Translations under genes and position numbers: made by a program
In this document: positions 8,964 to 24,323 of the stretch, piece after piece
Numbering within the stretch: position 1 is the stretch's first letter
Layout of the letters: each line of letters begins with the position of its first letter
Assembly: GCF_900105125.1 (NCBI RefSeq)
Contig: NZ_LT629750.1
Coordinates: forward strand, 3,348,001-3,412,000
Source: Bradyrhizobium canariense
Lineage (GTDB): Bacteria; Pseudomonadota; Alphaproteobacteria; Rhizobiales; Xanthobacteraceae
Length of the DNA: 64,000 bases
Reading direction: 5' to 3'
The notes under the pieces: generated by a model
The model's database searches: none
Seen by the model: the letters and a program-made list of their open reading frames with translations, nothing else
What the model was told of the DNA's origin: nothing

Positions 8964-10931
8964 TCAAAGACCCATTTTATCGTCCGGATCGAGGGTGACA
9001 GAACGAGCAAGGCCCGGCATCGAGCGGCTCAGGCTGCTCGCCTGCAGGGCATCGGTGTCGCCCTCATCAAGACCAGGATCAAACTCGTTGTCGATAAGCG
9101 GCGCCTTGATCACGACTTCCTCATGTTGCGGCAACTCCGGCTCGCGGCGAATGCCGCCATTCGGGTCACGGTCCCTGCGCTTCAGTGCCGCGTCCGCTAA
9201 GGGTGCAATCGGCGTACGGCCCGACCAATCGTCGGGCTCGGCGACCAGGCTGACCGGACCCGCGTGCGGAGGCTTGATCCGGTGCTGGAATTGCGGATCC
9301 TCGTAGTACCGAACCTTGCGGGCGCGGACCGGGTGGACCCCCGAAACCATCACAATCGCCTCGTTGGGCGAGAGCTGCATGACTTCTCCGGGCGTGAGCA
9401 GCGGGCGCGATGTCTCCTGACGGCTGACCATCAGGTGTCCGAGCCAGGGACTCAGGCGGTGTCCAGCATAGTTCTTCATCGCGCGCATTTCGGTCGCGGT
9501 GCCCAGCGCGTCCGATACGCGCTTGGCCGTGCGCTCGTCATTGGTGGAGAAAGCGATCCGGATATGGCAATTATCGAGAATAGCGTGGTTCGGCCCATAA
9601 GCGCGATCGAGCTGGTTCAGGCTTTGGGTGATCAGAAAGCCACGGATGCCATAGCCGGCCATGAAGGCGAGCTGGCTTTCGAAGAAGTCGAGACGGCCGA
9701 ACGCTGCAAACTCATCGAGCATCAGAAGGAGTTTTTGCCGTCGTCGGTCGGTATCCAGACTCTCGGTCAACCGCCGTCCAATCTGGTTGAGCACGAGCCG
9801 CATCAAGGGTTTTGTGCGGGCGATGTCGGAAGGTGGCACCACAAGGTAGAGCGAAATGGGCCGCGGTCCGTCTACGAGATCGCGGATGCGCCAATCACTT
9901 CGGCCAGTGACCTTAGCGACGACAGGATCGCGGTAGAGTCCCAAGAAACTCATCGTGGTCGATAAAACACCTGAGCGCTCATTTTCGCTCTTGTTGAGGA
10001 GCTCGCGTGCCGCTGATGCCACGACGGGATGAACGCGCTCACCGAGATGCGGGGTCGCCAACATCGCATTCAGCGTTGCCTCGATCGGATGAGAAGGATC
10101 GGACAGGAAGTTCGCGACGCCGGCGAGCGTCTTGTCGGCTTCCGCGTAGAGGACATGCAGAATCGTGCCAACAAGCAAGGAGTGACTGGTCTTCTCCCAA
10201 TGATTTCGGCGTTCGAGCGCGCCTTCGGGATCGACGAGGATGTCGGCGATATTTTGGGCGTCGCGTACCTCGCAGTCACCCTTGCGGATTTCGAGGAGCG
10301 GATTGTAGGCCGCGCTCGCCTGATTGGTCGGGTCGAACAGGAGTACAGGTCCAAATCGGGCGCGCCAACCGGAGGTCAACTTGAAGTTCTCGCCCTTGAT
10401 GTCATGGACGATCGTGGAACTCGGCCAGGTGAGTAGGGTCGGAATGACAAGACCGACGCCCTTGCCCGAACGGGTCGGGGCAAAGCAAAGGACATGCTCG
10501 GGACCGTCGTGCCTGATATAGCGGCCATCAAAGCGGCCGAGGACCACTCCCTCGGCGCCGAGAAGCCCGGCGCGCCGGACCTCCCGTGTATCGGCCCAGC
10601 GCGCCGAGCCGTACGTTGTCACCTGCTGGGCTTCCTTCGCCCGCCACACCGACAGCATGATAGCAATGCCGATAGCGGCAAACCCGCCGCTCGCCGCGAT
10701 GCAGGCGCCCTCGACAAATATCTTCGGCGCGTAGGCGTCGAACTGAAACCACCAGATGAAGAAAGCAAGTGGTTGATACACCGGCCAGAGTCCAACCATG
10801 AACCAGGCGGGCCCGAGCTGCGGTTGGAAGGCGAGACGCCAAGCCGTCCACTCCGTCGCGCCCCAAAGGAACGCGAGCACCACGATTGAGACGAAGAACA
10901 GCTGCCCCCAGAGGATTTTGGTTGCGGACAT
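8964..10931 (-). CDS. traG: Type IV coupling protein TraG/VirD4
   Basis: A 655-residue inner-membrane ATPase that links the relaxosome to a transfer channel. Two N-terminal membrane segments precede the ATPase domain. Walker A is APTRSGKG at about 151-158 and Walker B is LLLMLDEF at about 401-408. I chose the ATG giving MSATKILWGQ, the usual start of rhizobial TraG, 42 codons inside the longest frame; the longer version would overlap the relaxase gene. It lies between the relaxase and RHH genes on the same strand. It looks intact, but no partner mating-pair proteins are in the window. Confidence 0.9.
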   Translation of the reverse strand: MSATKILWGQLFFVSIVVLAFLWGATEWTAWRLAFQPQLGPAWFMVGLWPVYQPLAFFIWWFQFDAYAPKIFVEGACIAASGGFAAIGIAIMLSVWRAKEAQQVTTYGSARWADTREVRRAGLLGAEGVVLGRFDGRYIRHDGPEHVLCFAPTRSGKGVGLVIPTLLTWPSSTIVHDIKGENFKLTSGWRARFGPVLLFDPTNQASAAYNPLLEIRKGDCEVRDAQNIADILVDPEGALERRNHWEKTSHSLLVGTILHVLYAEADKTLAGVANFLSDPSHPIEATLNAMLATPHLGERVHPVVASAARELLNKSENERSGVLSTTMSFLGLYRDPVVAKVTGRSDWRIRDLVDGPRPISLYLVVPPSDIARTKPLMRLVLNQIGRRLTESLDTDRRRQKLLLMLDEFAAFGRLDFFESQLAFMAGYGIRGFLITQSLNQLDRAYGPNHAILDNCHIRIAFSTNDERTAKRVSDALGTATEMRAMKNYAGHRLSPWLGHLMVSRQETSRPLLTPGEVMQLSPNEAIVMVSGVHPVRARKVRYYEDPQFQHRIKPPHAGPVSLVAEPDDWSGRTPIAPLADAALKRRDRDPNGGIRREPELPQHEEVVIKAPLIDNEFDPGLDEGDTDALQASSLSRSMPGLARSVTLDPDDKMGL

Positions 10932-11020
10932 GGAGCCGAGATGCGTCGCCTCACGCACCGGTGCAACGACAATATCCCCGGTATCGCAAGCGCTCGCACC
11001 GCAGCGCAGAGATCGGCGGG

Positions 11021-12748
11021 TCAGAGGGACAGGTCCCGCCTTCGTCCAAAACTCCAATCAACGCGGCTTGGACCGGCGATGCCGTTCACCTGTCTGCCCA
11101 GCTCGCGCTCAAGGGAGGGTGTCCAGGGTACGAGCTGAAAGCCGAGACCGTTGTCGATCATGGCGAACCGGCCGGTGGCAAGCGACAGTCTTCGCCGATA
11201 TACCCCCGAAACGGACTCTCCTGCCTCAGCGGGTAGATGCGCCGATCCAGTTTCCTCGGCAAGGCGCCGACCCACGGTGTCGAGCTCGCGGTTGCGGAGA
11301 GTTTGGACGAGGTTGCGGCCGAGCGTGACCTTGTCTCCATCGCGGCGGGCAAGCCCCTGCTCCGCCAGCGCGTCGATCCTCCGGTCGAGCGCGGCGCGGA
11401 CCTCGGCACCGAAACCGCCGCGTGAGAGATCGGCAGGTTCACGGGCGACCAGGCGCCGGTCAAGCCAGGTGGCCCCTTCCGCCGCCACCTGCTGGTCGAG
11501 ATTGAGGTCCGAGCGGACGGCGAGCGCAATTCGCTGCCGGCCCCTGGTATCCTCGAAGCGACGCAACTCCACAATCCCGCCGGTCGGACCGTCGCCGCTC
11601 GCATCGATGTCCGGGAGTTTGAGGTGATGCACCCGTCCATCAATTCCATCGATGACGGCGAACGCCGTACCGCGGAGCTCGTCGTCGAGCCCGCGTGCTA
11701 TGAGACGACCGATCACGGGTTCGCCATGGCTTTCGCCTTCGAGCGCCCAGGAAGATGGCGCGCGGGGTGCGCCGTCTTTTGCGATTGTCTTGTGCAACCG
11801 CTTGATGATATCGCCGCGTTCCCCAAGCGCACGCAAGCGTGGTTCCGCATCGTCGGCAAGGACCCAACACGAGGAGCCGGCTGGCTCAGCAAGCCCCAAT
11901 CGCTCGAGCGTCCGCATCCGGCCAATCCGGATCTCCCGCAACGAGTCGCGCGCGGCGTCGCTCTTCGGCCGAAGATCCACCACCCCCTCAGCCCCTCTCG
12001 CTTCCCGGGCAATCACCTGATCGAGTTTCGTCCAGCGTTCCGCAGTCACCTCCGCCTCAAGACCCCGTTGGATCTCCAGCTCCGATCGCGGACCTAGCTC
12101 GCGCGTGACGAGGTCGCCGGCGCGGGCGCGCAAGCCCTTTCCGATATAATCGCGGCTTATGACGAGGTCAGAGCCATCATCCGCGCGGCCGCGCACGAGG
12201 ATGTGGATATGGGGATGCTCGGTATTCCAGTGGTCGACCGCGACCCAATCGAGCCGCGTACCAAGATCACGCGAGGCTTGATGCAGGAGTTCGCGGGTAA
12301 AGCTCCGCAGGCTTTCCAACTCGCTCGCCTCATCCGGCGAGACAATAAACCGGAAATGATGCCGATCGCCGTCACAGCGTTCGGCGAAAGCCCGGCCGTC
12401 TGCATCGTCCCCGGCGGCATCGAAGACTTTGCCGGGTGATCCATCACGAGTGACCCCGTCCCGCTTGAGATAACCGATATGGGCTCTCAGTGCCCCCGGC
12501 GACCTCATCCGACGAACGACACGCGCCTTGACCACGGCGCCGCGGGCGCGATTACCGAGTAGCCGTGCCGCGGCAATGCTCGCCGCACGGCCGCGCCCGA
12601 AAGATCCGCCCTTCCTAATCCCGCCGCGTGAGAGACCGCCTGCCTTCTGTGCGGCTTTGAGGGCCTGCGCGAGAAACGGCTTTGTCTTGGGCGCGCGCGT
12701 CGAACGGATTCGCCCTGGACGGATACGCAGATCGTCCTTGCGAGTCAT
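11021..12748 (-). CDS. Relaxase/mobilization nuclease with DUF3363 region
   Basis: A 575-residue relaxase that would nick and covalently hold the transfer origin. The metal-binding histidines are in EHPHIHILVRG (His178, 180 and 182), preceded by HHFRFIVSP, which supports an HUH-type nuclease fold; a tyrosine in HIGYLKRDG near residue 93 is a candidate nucleophile. The C-terminal half matches the DUF3363 region found in these rhizobial relaxases. The ATG giving MTRKDDLRIRPGRIRS is preferred, with GGGGCGG upstream. Its oriT was not located; the 200 bp upstream is the first place to look. Confidence 0.85.
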   Translation of the reverse strand: MTRKDDLRIRPGRIRSTRAPKTKPFLAQALKAAQKAGGLSRGGIRKGGSFGRGRAASIAAARLLGNRARGAVVKARVVRRMRSPGALRAHIGYLKRDGVTRDGSPGKVFDAAGDDADGRAFAERCDGDRHHFRFIVSPDEASELESLRSFTRELLHQASRDLGTRLDWVAVDHWNTEHPHIHILVRGRADDGSDLVISRDYIGKGLRARAGDLVTRELGPRSELEIQRGLEAEVTAERWTKLDQVIAREARGAEGVVDLRPKSDAARDSLREIRIGRMRTLERLGLAEPAGSSCWVLADDAEPRLRALGERGDIIKRLHKTIAKDGAPRAPSSWALEGESHGEPVIGRLIARGLDDELRGTAFAVIDGIDGRVHHLKLPDIDASGDGPTGGIVELRRFEDTRGRQRIALAVRSDLNLDQQVAAEGATWLDRRLVAREPADLSRGGFGAEVRAALDRRIDALAEQGLARRDGDKVTLGRNLVQTLRNRELDTVGRRLAEETGSAHLPAEAGESVSGVYRRRLSLATGRFAMIDNGLGFQLVPWTPSLERELGRQVNGIAGPSRVDWSFGRRRDLSL

Positions 12749-12989
12749 CGTATCCGCCCCAATGTGTCGAAAACCGAGGAAGAACAACGCGCTAGTAAAA
12801 ATGGCAAGTTGTGCCGGGTCTTCGCAATGTTTCCAGTATGGTTGAATTTGCTAGCAATTCCCAACCGACCGACCCGCCGCACCTTGCGGCTTTTATCCTG
12901 CCATCCGTGGCTGGTATCTCCCCGCACCCACCGCATCCCATCAGAACACGCAATGACCAACGACAAATTGCGATGAAGCACGATCTGGA

Positions 12990-15181: not shown

Positions 15182-16069
15182 TCACAGGCTGCCTCCTGAC
15201 GGAGGAACGAGCCCGCGCTTGCGTAACCGCTCCGCAAGGGCATCGATCAGAATGGGCGCGAAGTTCAGTCGCTCTGCACCGCGATGATCATGCGTGATGA
15301 CCAGCCGGTAGCCGGGCAATGTCTGGCGGTGGACGATCTCGCGCAGGTCGTAGGCGAAGTGCTTGAGTGGTGAGAGGCTCCCGGACTTGGCGTGGAGATG
15401 TACAAGATCAAAACTCCAGCCGCCCTGCTGGCGACCGCCATGCTTGCGCACCAGGCGATAGAGCCAGCGCTCCAATCCCCCCGTTAGGTCGAAGTACGCG
15501 CGGTCGATCGTAAGGACGAGCGCTTCATTCAGTACGCCTGAATAGAACCAATCGGGAAGGATCAGCTCGAGTCCTCTGGCGTTGCCGTGCACATCGGCCG
15601 TCTCCTTCCACTCATTGATCCAGGAGAAGCGATGCCGTCGGCGTTCCGTCGGCTGGCGGATCGAGGTCATCACGGTGGTCGACTGCAGCCGGTCGAGTGC
15701 AGCCTTGAGGCGGTCGTAGTCGCGCACGCCAGTGCCACGACCGACAAAGGTCAGGATTTCGTATGGCGTTGCCGCCATCAGACGGGACGTCTTAAGGCCG
15801 GCATCGCGGGCCTCCACGATTTGTGAGGCGGCCCAGATCAGAACGTCCGCGTCCCAGATCGTCGCCATGCCGTGTTCCGGCACGGCTTCAACCCGAATGG
15901 TGATGGCTCCGGCGCGGAAATCGATCGGTGTGACGCGCTTGGACTTCGCCAATGAAAAGAATGGATAGGCCATCAAATCCTGCGCATCGCGCGGCGCCAG
16001 ATCGCCCGGCAACGCGCGAAACAGGTCGAGTTGGTCGCGCTCCGATCGATGCCTTCGGGATGCTGACAC
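15182..16069 (-). CDS. repA: Plasmid-type replication initiator RepA
   Basis: A 295-residue initiator of the RepA family carried by alphaproteobacterial plasmids and integrative elements. The start region SERDQLDLFRALPGDLAPRD and the following DLMAYPFFSLAKSKR are characteristic. It would bind the three iteron-like repeats just beyond its stop. I chose a GTG at 16069 with GGAG upstream, 17 bp after the AlpA-like gene; the longer frame overlaps that gene. Many related modules have a parA between repA and DUF2840; it is missing here. Confidence 0.88.
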   Translation of the reverse strand: MSASRRHRSERDQLDLFRALPGDLAPRDAQDLMAYPFFSLAKSKRVTPIDFRAGAITIRVEAVPEHGMATIWDADVLIWAASQIVEARDAGLKTSRLMAATPYEILTFVGRGTGVRDYDRLKAALDRLQSTTVMTSIRQPTERRRHRFSWINEWKETADVHGNARGLELILPDWFYSGVLNEALVLTIDRAYFDLTGGLERWLYRLVRKHGGRQQGGWSFDLVHLHAKSGSLSPLKHFAYDLREIVHRQTLPGYRLVITHDHRGAERLNFAPILIDALAERLRKRGLVPPSGGSL

Positions 16070-18309: not shown

Positions 18310-19506
18310 TCAGTTGGCCCGTTCCAACAATCGTTTCGCCCTGCCCTCAAGCTCAAGACGCGCGTCCTGATGCGATTTGCCGCGGGCAAACGCCGTGATC
18401 CCCTGCACGAAGTCAAACACACTTTCCGGCGGGCGACCTTCCTCGTGCAGCACTGTCTCGATGATTTTCACCGTCTCGGACTTGGAGAACCCGCGCTTAC
18501 GCAGGAAGCTCTCGCGGTCCTCGTCGCTGCGGGCAACGATCCGCTCGCGCGCGGCCTTGATACCGGCGATGAACGGCGCGGGCGACGAATCGGCGAAGCG
18601 CGTTAACGCGGGTGCCGCCTCGTGAGCAAAACGCTGCGCGGCAAATTTTGAATGCCGGATGGTAATTTCCTCGAAATTCTCGACGCCCCAAAGATTGCGG
18701 TTCATGCAGACCGCGCGGAGATAAAAAGAAGCTATTCCCAACGTTTTCGATCCGACTTCGCTGTTCCAGCAATAGAACCCCCGAAAATACAAATCCGGCG
18801 ATCCATCCGGCAGACGGCCCGCCTCGATGGGGTGGGTGTCATCCACCAAAAACAGGAACACGTCGCGGTCGCTAGCGTAAAGCGTCGTGGTGTCCTTTGT
18901 GATATCCACGAATGGGTTGTGCGTCATGGTGCTCCAGTCGAGCACGCCCGGTACCTTCCACCGTGTGTCACCAGTGCCGTTGCCCGCGATTTTCCTCACG
19001 GCCGCGACAAGTTCGTGATCCCAGATCCGGCCATAATCGGGCCCGGTCACGGCGCGAAGCTCGACGCGACCGTCATCGGCCTCCAGTGTTTTCACCAGTT
19101 CGGCGCGGTGCGACAAGAGACCGTGTTGCAGATTGATCCCGGCCAACGGCGCGGGAAGCTGCCGCATATAGGATGATGGCGCGCCGACAAGGGTGCATAA
19201 TTGCCCAAAGCTCCAATGCGTCGGCGCGACCGGTTCATCACGTCCCGGTACGATCAGGGCCAGCCGCTCGGCGCTGTTACGGCTTGCCTCCACCTTGACG
19301 GCACGGCTCTCCACGGTACGGGTCTGCGCACGCTCGGCAGGGCGGCGTACCGCGTCATATAGATCGGTCAGGCTGAGATAGCGCTCGTCATCGGGCCGGG
19401 AAAACCATTCCGACGACACGCGGCCAATACGCTCGCCGCGCGATACGTCCACGCGGAAGCCGCTGGAAACAGGCTGCTCGTTCTGGGTCAGGGTTATCAT
19501 GGTCAT
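18310..19506 (-). CDS. DUF932 (plasmid/phage-like) protein
   Basis: A 398-residue cytoplasmic protein of the DUF932 family, common on plasmids and integrative elements and of unknown biochemical role. Recognisable parts are WSFGQLCTLVGAPSSYMRQLP, the ITKDTTTLYASDRDVFLFLVDD block, RGFYCWNSEVGSKTLGIASF and MNRNLWGVENFEEI. The first ATG has GGAG eight bases upstream. The roughly 265 bases ahead of it are homologous to the leader of parB and may form a structured RNA. A strong hairpin follows the stop. Confidence 0.85.
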   Translation of the reverse strand: MTMITLTQNEQPVSSGFRVDVSRGERIGRVSSEWFSRPDDERYLSLTDLYDAVRRPAERAQTRTVESRAVKVEASRNSAERLALIVPGRDEPVAPTHWSFGQLCTLVGAPSSYMRQLPAPLAGINLQHGLLSHRAELVKTLEADDGRVELRAVTGPDYGRIWDHELVAAVRKIAGNGTGDTRWKVPGVLDWSTMTHNPFVDITKDTTTLYASDRDVFLFLVDDTHPIEAGRLPDGSPDLYFRGFYCWNSEVGSKTLGIASFYLRAVCMNRNLWGVENFEEITIRHSKFAAQRFAHEAAPALTRFADSSPAPFIAGIKAARERIVARSDEDRESFLRKRGFSKSETVKIIETVLHEEGRPPESVFDFVQGITAFARGKSHQDARLELEGRAKRLLERAN

Positions 19507-19771
19507 CGCTCATTCTCCTTTGGGGCTGGGTTAAAGCGCAGCGCTGCGCTGCAACCCTGCCCGTCGGCGAGACCGGGGTAGCAAGAGCAAGGGCGGCCGG
19601 AGTGGAGGGGGATCACCCGCCCATGGGGGCGCGCGACGCGCGCGTCTGCACGCGCCTGGCGCTCATGTCTTCATGAGAATTCTGCGACAGCGCGGAAGAC
19701 CGGGGAGACCACTCCGGCCGGCGTCGGCTTCGGCGCTTTACCCTTGCGCGCGCGAGGGCGGAGCCCTTAGC
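19507..19771 (-). promoter_or_regulatory. Homologous structured 5' leader, copy A (in front of DUF932)
   Basis: This gene-free stretch is similar to the 274 bases before parB. Two blocks are strongly conserved: about 19555-19622 and about 19690-19771. The arms GGCCGGAGTGG (19595-19605) and CCACTCCGGCC (19709-19719) are exact complements. In copy B both arms change together at two positions and still pair. A second hairpin (GCGTCG, loop, CGGCGC) is also kept in both. The stretch lies between the DUF736 terminator and the DUF932 start. Function is unknown. Confidence 0.6.
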
Positions 19772-19838
19772 ATCGTCAAACAACAAGGAGGCCGAAGGCC
19801 TTCTCCCCCTCTTTCTGCGCCGTTATGGTCATGAGCAC

Positions 19839-19868
19839 AAAAAAACCCCCGCCTCCGAAGAGGCGGGG
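19839..19868 (-). terminator. Rho-independent terminator of the DUF736 gene
   Basis: On the minus strand CCCCGCCTC, a four-base loop TTCG, and GAGGCGGGG form a perfect 9-bp stem followed by G and seven T. It lies 18 bp after the DUF736 stop. This is a textbook intrinsic terminator. Confidence 0.92.
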
Positions 19869-19874
19869 TGCGTC

Positions 19875-19964
19875 GATCCCCTTGGATCAGTCGCCGTTGC
19901 GGCGGGACCAGATCAGCGTGAAGCTGTCGTCGCCCTCACCCTTCACCAGCGAAGCGTAGATCGG
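19875..19964. repeat. Left arm of a 90-bp inverted duplication (end of DUF736)
   Basis: These 90 bases, covering the last codons of DUF736 and its downstream flank, recur inverted at 20687-20776 with about five mismatches. The duplication also carries part of the terminator region. The two arms face each other across about 720 bp. Confidence 0.85.
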
Positions 19965-20198
19965 CGCCGGGAAGCTCGGATCGTCGAGCTTGACCGAGAG
20001 ATATTCGCGGTCGGTTTCCCGCGCGGTCTTCTTCCAGGCGGCGCCGAACTCGGTGGCCCCGGCCAGGATGCGATAGTCAGGCGCCTTGTCGTTCTCCTTC
20101 TCGGTCGCGACGAACGTCGCCTTGACGTTGAGCGTGAGGGTCTTGACCGAGCCGGTGAAGCCGTTGTTCGACGCAGTGAAGGTGCCGATGGTAGCCAT
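19887..20198 (-). CDS. DUF736 protein
   Basis: A 103-residue cytoplasmic protein of the DUF736 family, typical of rhizobial integrative elements next to ParB and DUF932; role unknown. Family features are [21 protein letters not shown] at the start, [17 protein letters not shown] in the middle and [20 protein letters not shown] at the end. GGAG sits six bases before the ATG and an intrinsic terminator follows. A decayed inverted copy of its 3' part lies at 20684-20764. Confidence 0.9.
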
Positions 20199-20316
20199 GG
20201 TGGTCTCCGTTCTGTTGTCGGGCCGCGACCATCGCAGCCTCGATGGCGGTCCTTGGCCCGGGGAGCGATCGGCCCGCAGCCGTCAGGCCCGCAGCGTAGC
20301 GGAGGACGGCGGTAGA

Positions 20317-20370
20317 CGGCTTTTTTGCCTCGCGAGGAATGCCGCCACTTCGCGGCAGGGAAAAAAGCCG
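20317..20370. repeat. Long inverted repeat between the two DUF736 copies
   Basis: CGGCTTTTTT at 20317-20326 pairs with AAAAAAGCCG at 20361-20370; inside, GCCGC (20341-20345) pairs with GCGGC (20352-20356). The structure could extrude as a cruciform or act as a terminator in both directions. It sits near the middle of the divergent duplicated region. Confidence 0.6.
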
Positions 20371-20478
20371 GCGAAGCCGTTGCGGGAAGGCGATCGAGGC
20401 GAAGCCGGCCCTCGGGCCTGATCCGTCCATTCGAGGTTGCGTGGGACGCGCCCTTCAAACAGACTGATGGAGACCACC

Positions 20479-20764
20479 ATGACTGCCATCATCGTCGCCG
20501 CACAAGGACAGGAATCACCGGTCGTACAGAGACCTGCGCCCGCGCATCAACGAAGGCGAAGGCGCGACCTGGCGAACGATGGCGCATGATTTCGCATCGC
20601 GGCGCGACCGGTCGCGCCGCCCTCGACTCAAGACCCGCGGAATCCAATTTGCGATCTCGATGTCTCAGATGGCCGATAGGTCCGCCCCGATCTACGCCTC
20701 GCTGGTGAAGGGCGAGGGTGACGACAGCTTCACGCTGATCTGGTCCCGCCGTAATGGCGACTGA
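20479..20764 (+). pseudogene. Decayed inverted copy of the DUF736 gene
   Basis: The start context GGAGACCACCATG matches that of the intact DUF736 gene, and the last 26 codons ([20 protein letters not shown] and on to the stop) are almost identical. The middle does not encode DUF736: it is shorter, interrupted by stops and in shifted frames. The 3' end is the right arm of a 90-bp inverted repeat. A recombination event has replaced the core of the gene. Confidence 0.75.
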
Positions 20765-20911
20765 TCCAAGGGGATCGGCGCCCCCACCTCTTCGGAAGCG
20801 GGGTTAACGGGCGCTGACCACAACACGCCCTTCCCCACTGGCTTCGAGCCAAAAAGCGTCTAGCCTTCCTTGAAGAATGCACCCGGTCGACGGCATGAGT
20901 ATCATGAGGTT

Positions 20912-20937
20912 GGCCGCGCGCCCGATGGCGCGCGGCC
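20912..20937. other. GC-rich hairpin after parB
   Basis: GGCCGCGCGCC, four bases, then the exact complement: an 11-bp stem 61 bp after the parB stop. It has no T-run on either side, so it may stop transcription only weakly, or protect the 3' end. Confidence 0.45.
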
Positions 20938-20998
20938 AGAAATTTCGACAGTCGTACGATGACAGCCGGGACCGCTCACGCGGCCCCGGCGATACCGC

Positions 20999-23035
20999 TT
21001 ACTCGGCGGCGACAGAGTACGCGTCAGGGTTAGCTTCCGTGACGGCATCCGCCTGAGGGTGTTCGGCAGGCTCTTGGGCGGCTCGCGGTGTCCGCATCAG
21101 CGTGGGCAGCCAGCCGGCTCCGACAAGCAACTGCTCGGCGGCTTCCGCCATGTCCTGCTTCTTCATGTCCGCCATCCGGTCAGCGGCCTCATCGCTGACC
21201 GCTTCCCGCACGGCGGCAAGAATGTGCGGCTTGGTGACACGACCGAGATAGGTCCGCACGGTCGGCGTCCAATGCGCGGTCATGTCGAGCGACACGGCCT
21301 CCGCCAACCTGTCCGCCGTTGCCACCGCACGGGGCCTACGCTCCGACGGCAGTCTCACGGCGTTGATCGTGAGCGCAGCGCAATGCGCAAACAGGGCCAT
21401 GCGGCTGTCATGGTCAAGCTCCACGACAAAAGCCCACAGGTCGGCCACGTCGCGCGGCATCTGCGTCGCCCAACGAGCGTGGTGATCCGCCCACGCCTTC
21501 CCCGCCTTCGTGTCCTCGATACCATCCGCATGCGAGGCCAGCACCGCGCTGACGGGACGGATGTCGAGAACGTGGGCGTCCGCACCGCGATAGAAGATTT
21601 GCGCGGCGAGTGCGTGGGTGACGGCCACGATGGCGACGTCCGGCTGTTCACCCAAGGCGAGACGAAGCCCGAGGGTGCGATGCTCCGTGAGATCGCGGAT
21701 CAGGATATCCGATAGCGGCTTGTGGTCGTCGTTCTCATCCTTCGCGTCCAAGGTCTCACCACCCAGCTCGTGGTTCGGGCCGGTTCCTCCGTCGTCACTG
21801 GCAGTATCACCGGCCTCCCCTTCCTCGCTCCCGTTCTGCGTTTCCGGCTCCAGTTTCTCGTCCTCGGCCAGTATAAAACCGCGTTCAACCCGCAACGCCC
21901 CATCATGGCCGAGGATGACGAAGGCCCCGCATCGGGCGACGTCGGCGGGGTCGTAGGCCACGCGCTTCGCCTCAAGCCGCTCGATCTCGGCCTCAAGCTC
22001 GCCGAAACGCGCATCGACGTCATCAGGCAGTTCTTCGGCGCTCTCATATTGCGTCGTCAGGCCGTTGAATTCGGACTGCGCGGCATCCAAGGCTGCTTGA
22101 TCTTCCGCCGACAGTTCAACCGGCTGCGGATAGGTCCGGCGCAGCCCATGGCTGTGGGGGTAGTCCAGGAAGACTTGCGCCCATTTCCACCCCTCCGCCT
22201 CCATCAGGGCGTTAGCCTCCCGCCCGAGTTTCGCCAAGACCAGCATATCGAGAAGCGCCACGTCCTCGAAATAGCCGCCGCGATCCTCGGTGAAGAGGTC
22301 GCGCAGGATCGTACCACCAACCTCCGTATACTTTTCTGCGCCGACAAAGACCGCGCGGCGATCCGTGGCGGCGACATGGGTTTCGGTGAGCAGGCGGCGG
22401 ATCGTGCTGGCGTCCCGGTTAAAGGACAGCCGCTCGAAGGCTGCTTCCTGCCGGGCATGGTCCTCGGTGATGGCAAATGCCATCAGCTGGTCGAGCGCCA
22501 GATCGCCATTGCGATAGATTTCGATCAGCTTGGGCGAGACCGCGCCTAAGCGCAGGCGCTGACGAACCACGTGAGGCGTCACGCCGAACCGGGCCGCAAT
22601 CTCCTCCGCGCCGAAGCCGCGTTCATCGGCGAGCTTCTTGAACGCCTCGAACTGGTCGGCCGGATGCATGTTTTCCCGAGTGACATTTTCGTCAAGGCTG
22701 ATCTCGTGCGGGTCGTTCGTCGTATCGACTATACAGCGGATCGGCTCGGTCTTCTTGATCTCCTTGCGCTTCACCCGCAGAAGCTGGGCAAGCCGCCTGC
22801 CCTCGCCGATGGTGACGGAATAGAAGCCGGTGGCCGCACCGTCGCCGTCCAATTCCGGTTCGACAACGAGGTTTTGCAAAATGCCCTTCGCGGCGATGCT
22901 TGCCGCGTAGGCTTCAATCGCCGCCTCGCTGTGCGGCGTCTTGCGGGCGTTCTTCGGGGACTTCTTGAGCTTGTTGAGCGGGATGAAAACCTCCGTCCCG
23001 CTCTCCACGATGGTTTCTGCGTGCTTGGCCGACAT
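20999..23035 (-). CDS. Large ParB/RepB/Spo0J-family protein
   Basis: A 678-residue ParB-like protein. The ParB N-terminal nuclease/CTPase domain spans about residues 12-115 (VFIPLNKLKKSPKNARKT at its start, TIGEGRRLAQLLRVK as its nucleotide motif). An HTH follows around 145-170 (EIAARFGVTPHVVRQRLRLGAVSP). The long C-terminal half has an acidic linker and no domain I can name. The protein is about twice the length of partition ParB and is typical of rhizobial elements. ATG with AAAGGAG seven bases upstream. Its leader resembles that of DUF932. No parA partner is present. Confidence 0.85.
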   Translation of the reverse strand: MSAKHAETIVESGTEVFIPLNKLKKSPKNARKTPHSEAAIEAYAASIAAKGILQNLVVEPELDGDGAATGFYSVTIGEGRRLAQLLRVKRKEIKKTEPIRCIVDTTNDPHEISLDENVTRENMHPADQFEAFKKLADERGFGAEEIAARFGVTPHVVRQRLRLGAVSPKLIEIYRNGDLALDQLMAFAITEDHARQEAAFERLSFNRDASTIRRLLTETHVAATDRRAVFVGAEKYTEVGGTILRDLFTEDRGGYFEDVALLDMLVLAKLGREANALMEAEGWKWAQVFLDYPHSHGLRRTYPQPVELSAEDQAALDAAQSEFNGLTTQYESAEELPDDVDARFGELEAEIERLEAKRVAYDPADVARCGAFVILGHDGALRVERGFILAEDEKLEPETQNGSEEGEAGDTASDDGGTGPNHELGGETLDAKDENDDHKPLSDILIRDLTEHRTLGLRLALGEQPDVAIVAVTHALAAQIFYRGADAHVLDIRPVSAVLASHADGIEDTKAGKAWADHHARWATQMPRDVADLWAFVVELDHDSRMALFAHCAALTINAVRLPSERRPRAVATADRLAEAVSLDMTAHWTPTVRTYLGRVTKPHILAAVREAVSDEAADRMADMKKQDMAEAAEQLLVGAGWLPTLMRTPRAAQEPAEHPQADAVTEANPDAYSVAAE

Positions 23036-23309
23036 GATTGATCTCCTTTGGGTTAAGGGCGCAGAGCGCACCTGCGCCTGCGCCCCTGCCCGTCGGCGAG
23101 ACCGGGGGTAGCAAGGGCCAGGGCGACCCGAGTGGAGGGGGATCGCCCGCCCTTAAGGGCCGCTCGAAGAGCGGGTCTGCACAAGCGCATGACTGGCCGC
23201 GGCGATTCAGGATGTGAGGAAGCGCGGAAGACCGGGGATACCACTCGGGTCGGCGCCGGCGTTTGCCGGCGCTTCACCCTGGCGCGCGCGAGGGGCGGAG
23301 CCCATTAGC
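23036..23309 (-). promoter_or_regulatory. Homologous structured 5' leader, copy B (in front of parB)
   Basis: Aligns with the leader of DUF932 over its length with gaps in the middle. The arms GACCCGAGTGG (23125-23135) and CCACTCGGGTC (23241-23251) are exact complements; compared with copy A, the second and fifth pairs are A-T for G-C and C-G for G-C, so pairing is preserved by double changes. A GCGCCGGC-GTTT-GCCGGCGC hairpin follows. Both copies end CCCAAAGGAG or AAAGGAG near the start codon, so the ribosome site is part of the conserved unit. Confidence 0.6.
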
Positions 23310-23651
23310 TTTCCTGCGAAAGGAAGGGACCTGTTGATTGGTGCAAGCCATACCCGGGAGAAAAAGGCAGCCGCAGGAGCGTCAGCATAGCGCCGACGCG
23401 GAACGCGGCGGGACGCGGGACCGACTGCAGTCGCGAGACCGGTTAACAAGGCACCCGAACGTGGGACAGTGATAGCGACGCCGGCATGCAATGACGGCGG
23501 GGCCCGCGAGCGAGTGCCTCCGGCGAGCGATTCAAGAACGACTTCACGATGCGTTGGTATCAATTTTGCGTTTGTGATATCGTCTCAATGTTGTGTATGT
23601 CGATTCACGGCGTGCGCATGTTCACTGAGCGATTTTTTTACAGAGGACGAC
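23310..23651. other. Gene-free stretch between parB leader and the Lys-rich gene
   Basis: About 340 bases with no convincing gene. It must hold the promoters of the parB leader (minus) and of the Lys-rich mini-gene (plus). The right end is AT-rich (around 23550-23640), fitting a promoter for the plus-strand gene. Confidence 0.4.
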
Positions 23652-23738
23652 ATGGCCAAGAAAGCGAAGAAGGCAAAGAAGAGCGCGAAGGCAGCCACCA
23701 AGAAGGTGGCAAAGAAGACTTCAAAGAAAAAGAAGTAG
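23652..23738 (+). CDS. Very short Lys/Ala-rich nucleoid-like protein
   Basis: Only 28 residues, starting MAKKAKKAKKSAKAATKK, with more than half lysine. AGAGGA sits four bases before the ATG. This composition resembles histone H1-like tails, so non-specific nucleic-acid binding is likely, but no folded domain exists. It has its own upstream AT-rich region and is followed 120 bp later by an intrinsic terminator. A longer frame from 23469 exists but lacks coding character. Confidence 0.65.
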   Translation: MAKKAKKAKKSAKAATKKVAKKTSKKKK

Positions 23739-24323
23739 TCGTATCCGCGGCTGAGAGATTGCCGCCTCCGGGTCGCACCCCGGACGCAAAGCGAAACCTT
23801 CCAAAGGATCTGAAACGTCCTTTGCAGCCGTTCGGTATCGCGGCAAGGTAAGATAAGGCCGGACCTTTGTGCAGGTGGCTGCTGCACAAAGGTCCGGTTT
23901 TTCGTTTCTGCCCGATGGGCATTCTCTGCTGGTTGCGCGAGGGATCGAAGCCGCACGGCCGAGACGCACCGCGGCTCGGTTCACGAGAGCCCGGTCCGGC
24001 CCGTGCCGGACGCACAAACGGAAGAGAAGACCTAGGGTTGGAGGCCTTGGAGATTTCCTCGGGAGCGTTTGTCTGCGCGACCTAAACTATGATCGGAAGC
24101 ATCGGAAAATCGCTTCTTCCACTCATCACCGCCGCGCGAGGCAAGGTCCCGCTGGCAAATTCCGCGATCCGTCAGCCATCCCCCTAGCCCGTAACCTGTA
24201 GCGGAGAGTTCGCGTGCGATAAAACGCCAAATCTTGAGTTCCCGCCATTGCGAATCCCAGCCATGTGTTAGCAGCCGGAACGAATCGCAGCCAAAACGAT
24301 TCGCCGTTATCAGGAGTATTTCC
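23739..24323. other. Long stretch without a recognised gene
   Basis: About 585 bases. Apart from the terminator at 23859-23902 I see no gene, tRNA or repeat. Several overlapping short frames exist on both strands, none with a recognisable family or a good ribosome site. Confidence 0.4.
23859..23902 (+). terminator. Intrinsic terminator after the Lys-rich gene
   Basis: CCGGACCTTTGTGCAG, a seven-base loop, its exact 16-bp complement, then five T. It is one of the strongest hairpins in the window. It would end the transcript of the Lys-rich mini-gene, 120 bp upstream. Confidence 0.92.

Follow-up and report, generated by a model that had tools for sequence, protein, structure and literature searches.

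A conserved fold before establishment genes of conjugative elements, chiefly in Alphaproteobacteria, that is most likely formed by the transferred single strand

Why should two otherwise unrelated genes of one genetic element be preceded by the same folded leader, and which nucleic acid strand does the folding? The question is raised by a stretch of 64,000 nucleotides (nt) of the Bradyrhizobium canariense genome (contig NZ_LT629750.1, positions 3,348,001 to 3,412,000; hereafter the window), in which a DUF932-like gene and a parB-like gene follow leader A (about 19507-19771) and leader B (23036-23309), respectively, all on the minus strand. The two leaders have one architecture and can be aligned over about 265 bases. 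The initial annotation had described these common blocks, a pair of 11-bp arms that match without a mispair in either copy, two differences between the copies being compensated, and a ribosome site, AAAGGAG, present in both leaders; each was found where it had been placed. Read in mRNA sense, the unit consists of a 5' hairpin (h0), helix P1, an optional side hairpin P2, the long-range helix P3, the inner helix P4 with a possible extension P4b, hairpins P5 and P6, the ribosome site and the ATG (coordinates in Table 1). The P5 hairpin is strongly conserved and contains the block GGTCTCGCCGACGGGCARGG.

The element is real and widespread. Its wobble pairs indicate that the structure is most likely formed by the transferred single strand and not by the mRNA. 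We consider it likely that it is a Frpo-like element, named after the Frpo regions of plasmid F, of a new family that folds as transferred single-stranded DNA for the early expression of establishment genes, chiefly in conjugative elements of Alphaproteobacteria.

Both copies folded better than their dinucleotide shuffles (copy A, z = -2.71, with 2 of 200 shuffles equally good; copy B, z = -2.84, with 1 of 100). Covariation was measured on 84 covariance-model matches (79 distinct rows), in an alignment that was fitted to the structure, hence biased towards it, and made of related copies: 93.3% of the cells were paired, compared with 82.4 ± 0.3% after shuffling and 34-50% when partners were slid by 1-3 columns, and double changes were found in 308 cells, compared with 73.0 ± 6.0 after shuffling (0 of 500 shuffles reached 308) and 29-57 after sliding. 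Both sides had changed at 35 of the 43 pairs of the family. In P3, which corresponds to the long-range stem noted originally, double changes affected 11 of the 12 pairs and all four Watson-Crick pair types were present at 10 of the 12 positions. The proposal that a covarying structured unit is common to the leaders of otherwise unrelated element genes is thus supported by the relatives, in which covariation exceeds background.

The unit had also been said to belong to no recognised family, and this stands: Rfam 15 gave nothing at gathering threshold in the whole window, the best match around copy A at a relaxed threshold reached 17.8 bits (E=0.38), and nine further loci gave nothing at E<=1. 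Membership of a known Rfam family was rejected, the six weak matches (twister-sister, ylbH and radC among them) being far under their cut-offs. No description of the element was found in the accessible parts of the Creative Commons-licensed articles of PubMed Central (PMC).

A covariance model built from 10 copies found three copies in the genome of origin and matched 18 of the 385 genomes searched in the class, that genome included. The exact P5 pattern occurred in 12 of 398 genomes of a phylum sample and in 3 of 385 of the class sample, the same genome again included; the reversed P5 control pattern was absent among the matches listed for both samples. The pattern was present in at least 118 stretches of named genomes, mostly alphaproteobacterial by title, with a few, among the matches listed, in Pseudomonas, Modicisalibacter, Solidesulfovibrio, one myxococcal and one acidobacterial assembly. 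Relatives on plasmids came from Rhizobium, Bradyrhizobium, Caulobacter, Defluviicoccus, Shinella, Paracoccus, Acuticoccus and the betaproteobacterium Nitrosospira. Among 130 pattern copies, 75 form class I. Class III (37 copies, from Sphingomonadales, Caulobacterales and others) and class II (8 copies, standing before ArdA or methyltransferase genes) are divergent in sequence; both have kept the 5' hairpin, P5 and the position. A few further copies are singletons, and a Devosia assembly (L076) carries a minimal form, about 113 nt long. A mere recent duplication of the leader is ruled out by the many divergent copies in other genomes. A phage origin is unlikely: copy B had no match in 50,697 phage records, and the P5 pattern was found on one contig of a viral collection (L164).

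The third copy in the genome of origin lies 133 kb off (L003:1502-1735), 5' of a parB-like gene that is broken by a stop codon and a change of frame, the remains of another element. Two Rhizobium plasmids (L006 and L013) carry a copy and a half-copy with no annotated gene directly behind, in L013 with traA nearby; these are probably decaying elements.

An ATG-started open reading frame (ORF) of at least 60 amino acids (aa) with a ribosome site followed 110 of 122 pattern copies, at 56-77 nt from the P5 pattern to the ATG (median 71, n=110). The other 12 are accounted for by contig ends, broken or absent genes, or chance, the copy in a Streptomyces stretch (L156) being judged a chance match. 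Pfam and NCBIfam, run on one representative of each family, classified the 110 genes as 56 ParB-like, 18 DUF932 of a 280-aa type, 16 DUF932-like of a 398-aa type, 8 ArdA, 6 DNA methyltransferase, 2 ArdC, 2 DUF2958 and 2 other genes. The role of the element in establishment or anti-defence was assigned by position. The window's own gene behind copy A, originally called DUF932, belongs to the 398-aa type; its match to PF06067 is weak (E=0.0091, 16.2 bits, under the cut-off of 23).

Which strand folds was judged from mismatches within the helices. An RNA helix tolerates G-U and does not tolerate A-C. Class I was here represented by 97 of 160 model matches, those having at least 20 core pairs with letters, 70% of them Watson-Crick (63 fell outside the class). 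On the sense strand, raw counts of A.C:G.T in these copies were 21:3 in P1, 32:3 in P3 and 53:8 in P4. Counted by parsimony as gains on a tree of the 92 unique rows, they were 14:3, 28:3 and 29:5, a total of 71:11 (p=7e-12). Copy by copy (P3, P4, and P1 minus its two outer pairs), 53 had only A.C, 6 only G.T, 6 both and 32 neither. The base composition (A.11, C.40, G.32, T.18), taken alone, would tilt the counts towards G.T. Folds made without the model and with G-U forbidden, on the 130 pattern copies deduplicated to 91, gave 1x1 A.C:G.T mismatches of 43:6 in class I (54 copies), 18:0 in class II (6 copies) and 9:0 in small groups (9 copies), compared with 111:68 in the shuffled control. The P6 hairpins gave 11:15 (93 sequences of all classes; Fisher test against class I, p=8e-5), and this lack of an A.C excess makes a general mutational strand bias unlikely. 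An A.C on the sense strand is a wobble pair on the template strand, so that its tolerance in P1, P3 and P4 is what would be expected if the template strand folds. The switch of behaviour between P5 and P6 would be expected if transcription starts between them.

By the nic-like sites, the template strand is also the one transferred in conjugation. The window carries a relaxase gene and, upstream of it, a putative nic site, whose strand leads us to take the plus strand as the transferred strand (T-strand), which is the template of both genes; with nic at this site, copy A is 6.6 kb and copy B 10.1 kb inside the leading region. The window's relaxase was compared with 57 genomes, of which 42 had a match, the survey covering relatives of this relaxase only. 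The P5 pattern was present in 41 of these 42 genomes (73 copies). A relaxase was listed within 25 kb of 49 copies, and every one of these was on the strand of the relaxase gene and upstream of it, at 3.3-20.5 kb (37 relaxases, 34 genomes); of the remaining 24, 7 had a relaxase farther off and 17 were on contigs for which none was listed. Positions were taken from the main rows among the matches listed, and 53 further rows (second pieces and fragments) added later changed nothing. Upstream of 34 of the 37 relaxases the consensus T[TCA][TA]ATC[CT]NGCC was found on the strand complementary to the relaxase gene, with none of 37 on the other strand and 0.17 expected by chance. It resembles the MOBP nic site, and the polarity of the nic was assigned as in MOBP systems.

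Several points weigh against a folding T-strand. The consensus was drawn after inspecting eight of the same loci, which leaves the strand contrast of 34:0 as its telling part; the nic consensus YATCCTGY was found at only 4 of the 37 loci, all on the T-strand, and within the window the short nic pattern alone was not rarer than chance (6 found, 6.35 expected). Both the copies and the genomes are related to one another, the latter having been picked for carrying the motif. Within the element, P4b gained G.T 13 times and A.C once (raw G.T:A.C 75:1, its 3' side being nearly invariant). It is probably the second hairpin that had been reported to stay paired through a G-U; in its mismatches this pairing runs counter to the main helices, and it is possibly no helix at all. 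h0 had no preference (gains 8:7), and class III was ambiguous, with A.C:G.T of 10:14 in the G-U-forbidding folds of 22 copies and of 34:13 when counted on an alignment of uncertain pairing. The identical wobble signature would be expected from an antisense RNA. Among the controls, plasmid F was mixed, the gain from allowing G-U being larger on the template strand for Frpo1 and on the sense strand for Frpo2. Cobalamin riboswitches gave 6 G.T and 5 A.C in 30 copies, near-equal numbers that make the 1x1 test weak at recognising true RNAs, and the tRNA control, of 9 tRNAs only, had neither mismatch.

Conventional promoter signals were sought outside and inside the element. Conservation starts abruptly at h0, with no common sequence upstream in 91 flanks, which rules out a common duplex promoter there; the 80 nt before h0 scored 6.58, compared with 6.69 for shuffled sequence, and look no more like a promoter than that sequence does. 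Within class I elements, a scan for -35/-10 boxes, which also misses Frpo itself, gave means of 6.41 (sense) and 6.88 (T-strand) of 12, with 6.6-6.7 for shuffles; a score of 8 or higher was reached by 4 and 12 of the 75 copies and by 38 and 40 of 375 shuffles, and there was no good -35/-10 pair on either strand (0.8 expected by chance in one scan). Plasmid F's own Frpo copies scored 7-8 of 12 and their shuffles 7.6-7.9, so that the scan is uninformative on Frpo-type boxes. A terminator-like site before copy A indicates that the DUF932-like gene probably needs a transcription start of its own.

A sequence of events can be proposed that would account for these features. During mating the plus strand of the window would be nicked near 12900 and enter the recipient first. 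While single, it would fold through P1, P3 and P4 into a double-stranded handle directly before each establishment gene, at which the host RNA polymerase, or another polymerase, would start. ParB, DUF932, ArdA, ArdC or a methyltransferase could then be made before the second strand is copied, and conversion to duplex would remove the fold and end early expression. From the computed fold, strand preference, position and orientation, and gene set we infer the promoter action, a start between P1 and P6, predicted at about 19528-19590 for copy A and 23057-23120 for copy B, and the kind of polymerase. A bolder version, which we hold only tentatively, is that there are proteobacterial single-strand promoters without recognisable -35/-10 boxes, in which the GC-rich fold of the T-strand is itself the polymerase entry site and the early signal for establishment and anti-restriction genes, joined by an older block shared with plasmid F (block U, below).

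Other readings of the same unit have to be set against this one. The fold could be a single-strand initiation site at which a primase or polymerase primes second-strand copying, and not primarily a promoter. The strand signature and the position in the leading region suit such a site, and the two functions may coexist, as Masai and Arai state for Frpo in the title of their paper. However, priming accounts poorly for the near-constant spacing to the ATG, or for elements that have two copies a few kb apart, each before its own gene (L092, L132, L150), and as the primary function we judge it unlikely. The unit was originally proposed to be a cis-regulatory RNA, and an mRNA leader, riboswitch-like or acting by processive antitermination, common to establishment genes would fit its place directly 5' of the ribosome site, its strong covariation, the P6 hairpin by the Shine-Dalgarno sequence and the G.T excess in P4b. 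The main helices do not bear this out: on the mRNA strand they gained A.C over G.T by 71:11, the reverse of the tolerance of RNA. With no conserved sequence upstream of h0 to act as a common promoter and no Rfam match, a leader of this kind is in our view rather improbable.

An antisense RNA transcribed from the opposite strand, folding there and controlling the downstream genes, predicts the observed wobble asymmetry equally. Its promoter would have to sit in the GC-rich P5/P6 block common to unrelated genes, h0 by eye has no consistent T-run behind it on that strand (25 flanks), and the coupling to transfer polarity would be left unexplained, which together make it quite doubtful. As for duplex DNA, ParB or another element protein might bind the unit as an operator or a partition-type site, ParB binding being the second idea of the initial annotation. 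This would agree with the high conservation of the P5 block and with ParB being the commonest downstream gene, and a common operator like the CUP elements of the IncN plasmid pKM101 belongs to the same type. CUP elements are likewise repeated upstream of leading-region genes, and differ in being duplex promoters bound by the repressor ArdK. Neither the compensatory changes across a stem of free sequence, with all four pair types, nor the strand-specific wobble is explained by a duplex site, and we regard it as very improbable.

Table 1. Positions of the two leaders, their parts and neighbouring features in the window
Feature	Coordinates	Strand	Evidence
TraG-type coupling protein	8964..11057	-	
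Relaxase	11021..12787	-	DUF3363, E=1.7e-86; Relaxase domain PF03432 just below its cut-off
Putative oriT nic site TATCCTGC; T-strand is the plus strand, leading region to the right	12894..12901	+	
DUF932-like gene, 398 aa, downstream of copy A	18310..19506	-	
Copy A, Shine-Dalgarno AAAGGAG	19515..19521	-	
Copy A, P6 hairpin, adjoining the ribosome site; no A.C excess at P6 in the family	19528..19557	-	
Copy A (h0 to P5), 5' of DUF932-like gene	19553..19770	-	covariance model, 137.6 bits
Copy A, P5, within the most conserved block	19560..19577	-	
Copy A, P1 3' arm	19587..19593	-	
Copy A, P3 3' arm	19594..19605	-	
Copy A, P4/P4b 3' arm region (19644-19651 and 19605-19619, copy-specific insertion in between)	19605..19651	-	
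Copy A, P4/P4b 5' arm	19690..19704	-	
Copy A, P3 5' arm (partner 19594-19605)	19709..19720	-	
Copy A, P1 5' arm (partner 19587-19593)	19741..19747	-	covariation
Copy A, h0, 5' hairpin	19755..19768	-	sequence position
Intrinsic terminator-like site behind upstream DUF736 gene, about 76 nt before copy A	19847..19868	-	consensus match
parB-like gene, about 678 aa, downstream of copy B	20999..23035	-	PF17762, E=1e-5
Copy B, Shine-Dalgarno AAAGGAG	23043..23049	-	
Copy B, P6 hairpin	23057..23086	-	
Copy B, 5' of parB	23082..23307	-	covariance model, 135.5 bits
Copy B, P5	23089..23106	-	
Copy B, P1 3' arm	23117..23123	-	
Copy B, P3 3' arm	23124..23135	-	
Copy B, P4/P4b 3' arm region (23175-23182 and 23135-23149)	23135..23182	-	
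Copy B, P4/P4b 5' arm	23222..23236	-	
Copy B, P3 5' arm (partner 23124-23135)	23241..23252	-	
Copy B, P2 side hairpin	23253..23272	-	
Copy B, P1 5' arm (partner 23117-23123)	23277..23283	-	
Copy B, h0	23292..23303	-	
Block U, second conserved structured block, common to plasmid F upstream of its two Frpo regions	23935..24005	-	

A 102-nt inverted repeat (92%; 19866-19967 and 20684-20785) consists of a part of the DUF736 gene duplicated in opposite orientation, beside a duplicated hairpin. A perfect 16-bp inverted repeat with a T-rich tail (23859-23897) lies between a small lysine-rich ORF (about 23651-23739, plus strand) and block U.

If a folding T-strand is indeed the active form, early expression from entering DNA would be more general than the plasmid F case, being reached through a family unrelated in sequence in conjugative elements of Alphaproteobacteria. 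A simple search route to more such elements would follow, namely to look for structures that covary and carry their wobble pairs on the transferred strand. The element would also mark the genes that an incoming element possibly needs first (ParB, DUF932, ArdA, ArdC and methyltransferase), its probable purpose being to switch on protective genes at once in the new cell.

The gene content of the F leading region is similar: it holds DUF932, a 652-aa ParB, a DNA methylase, an antirestriction gene and an SLT gene. The window's ParB is 29% identical to the 652-aa ParB (E=3e-59), and the 280-aa DUF932 type is 49% identical to that of F. Frpo2 and Frpo1 were placed in the F record as 90% identical repeats (L232:10101-10622 and 15490-16012, respectively), DUF932 being the second listed gene behind Frpo1 and ParB the third behind Frpo2. 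The fold itself has no sequence similarity to Frpo: in a blastn comparison of 130 copies and their flanks with the F leading region, the 4 hits, in 2 copies, were all to block U. This non-coding, apparently structured block of about 60-70 nt lies in F at about L232:10119-10173 and 15507-15561, and is 81% identical over 70 nt (E=1e-11) to that of L126, whose leader copy is more than 5 kb away. Among 29 fuzzy matches to block U, 15 had the motif within 2 kb on the same strand, 11 were without it, and 3 had it on the opposite strand at -102 to -110, overlapping the motif itself. Mismatches in block U had no strand preference (12:11 in 26 deduplicated copies). In L054, L090 and L107 the P1-P3 half, read as its reverse complement, is similar to block U, as would be the case if a single repeated or inverted unit had given rise to both.

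Single-strand promoters are known experimentally in enterobacterial plasmids such as F and ColIb-P9, and surveys have extended them by similarity or by -35/-10 boxes (PMC11541004, PMC12826799); the term 'Alphaproteobacteria' is absent from the main texts of these two articles. The EGeRS1 and EGeRS2 sequences of the pLS20 family are likewise conserved before several establishment operons, but there the transferred strand is the non-template strand, and here it is the template (PMC8708921). STAXI is also a structured motif near antirestriction, SSB and integrase genes, for which the possibility of single-stranded DNA was raised by its authors; it differs in consisting of repeated pseudoknots, and the authors leaned to RNA because of its UUCG loops (PMC2864571; our sequence comparison consisted of the Rfam scans only).

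The closest likeness is to Frpo1 and Frpo2 (ssi). In F, Frpo1 lies upstream of ygeA and ygeB and Frpo2 upstream of ssb and the psi genes, and both are needed for early expression; a leading gene in the reverse orientation, not templated by the T-strand, comes on late (PMC9849209). Like the elements described here, they lie in the leading region, with the T-strand as template and anti-defence genes downstream (PMC9849209, PMC11541004). They too are folded elements before units with DUF932 and ParB, repeated a few kb apart, and block U is upstream of both F copies and of some copies here. The present fold differs in being GC-rich and multi-helix, in abutting the ribosome site, and in occurring in other bacterial classes. 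In conclusion, we have not filed the element as Frpo; it is like Frpo in where it lies, in its polarity, in its gene set and in folding as a single strand, not in sequence, and by this analogy it would work like one.

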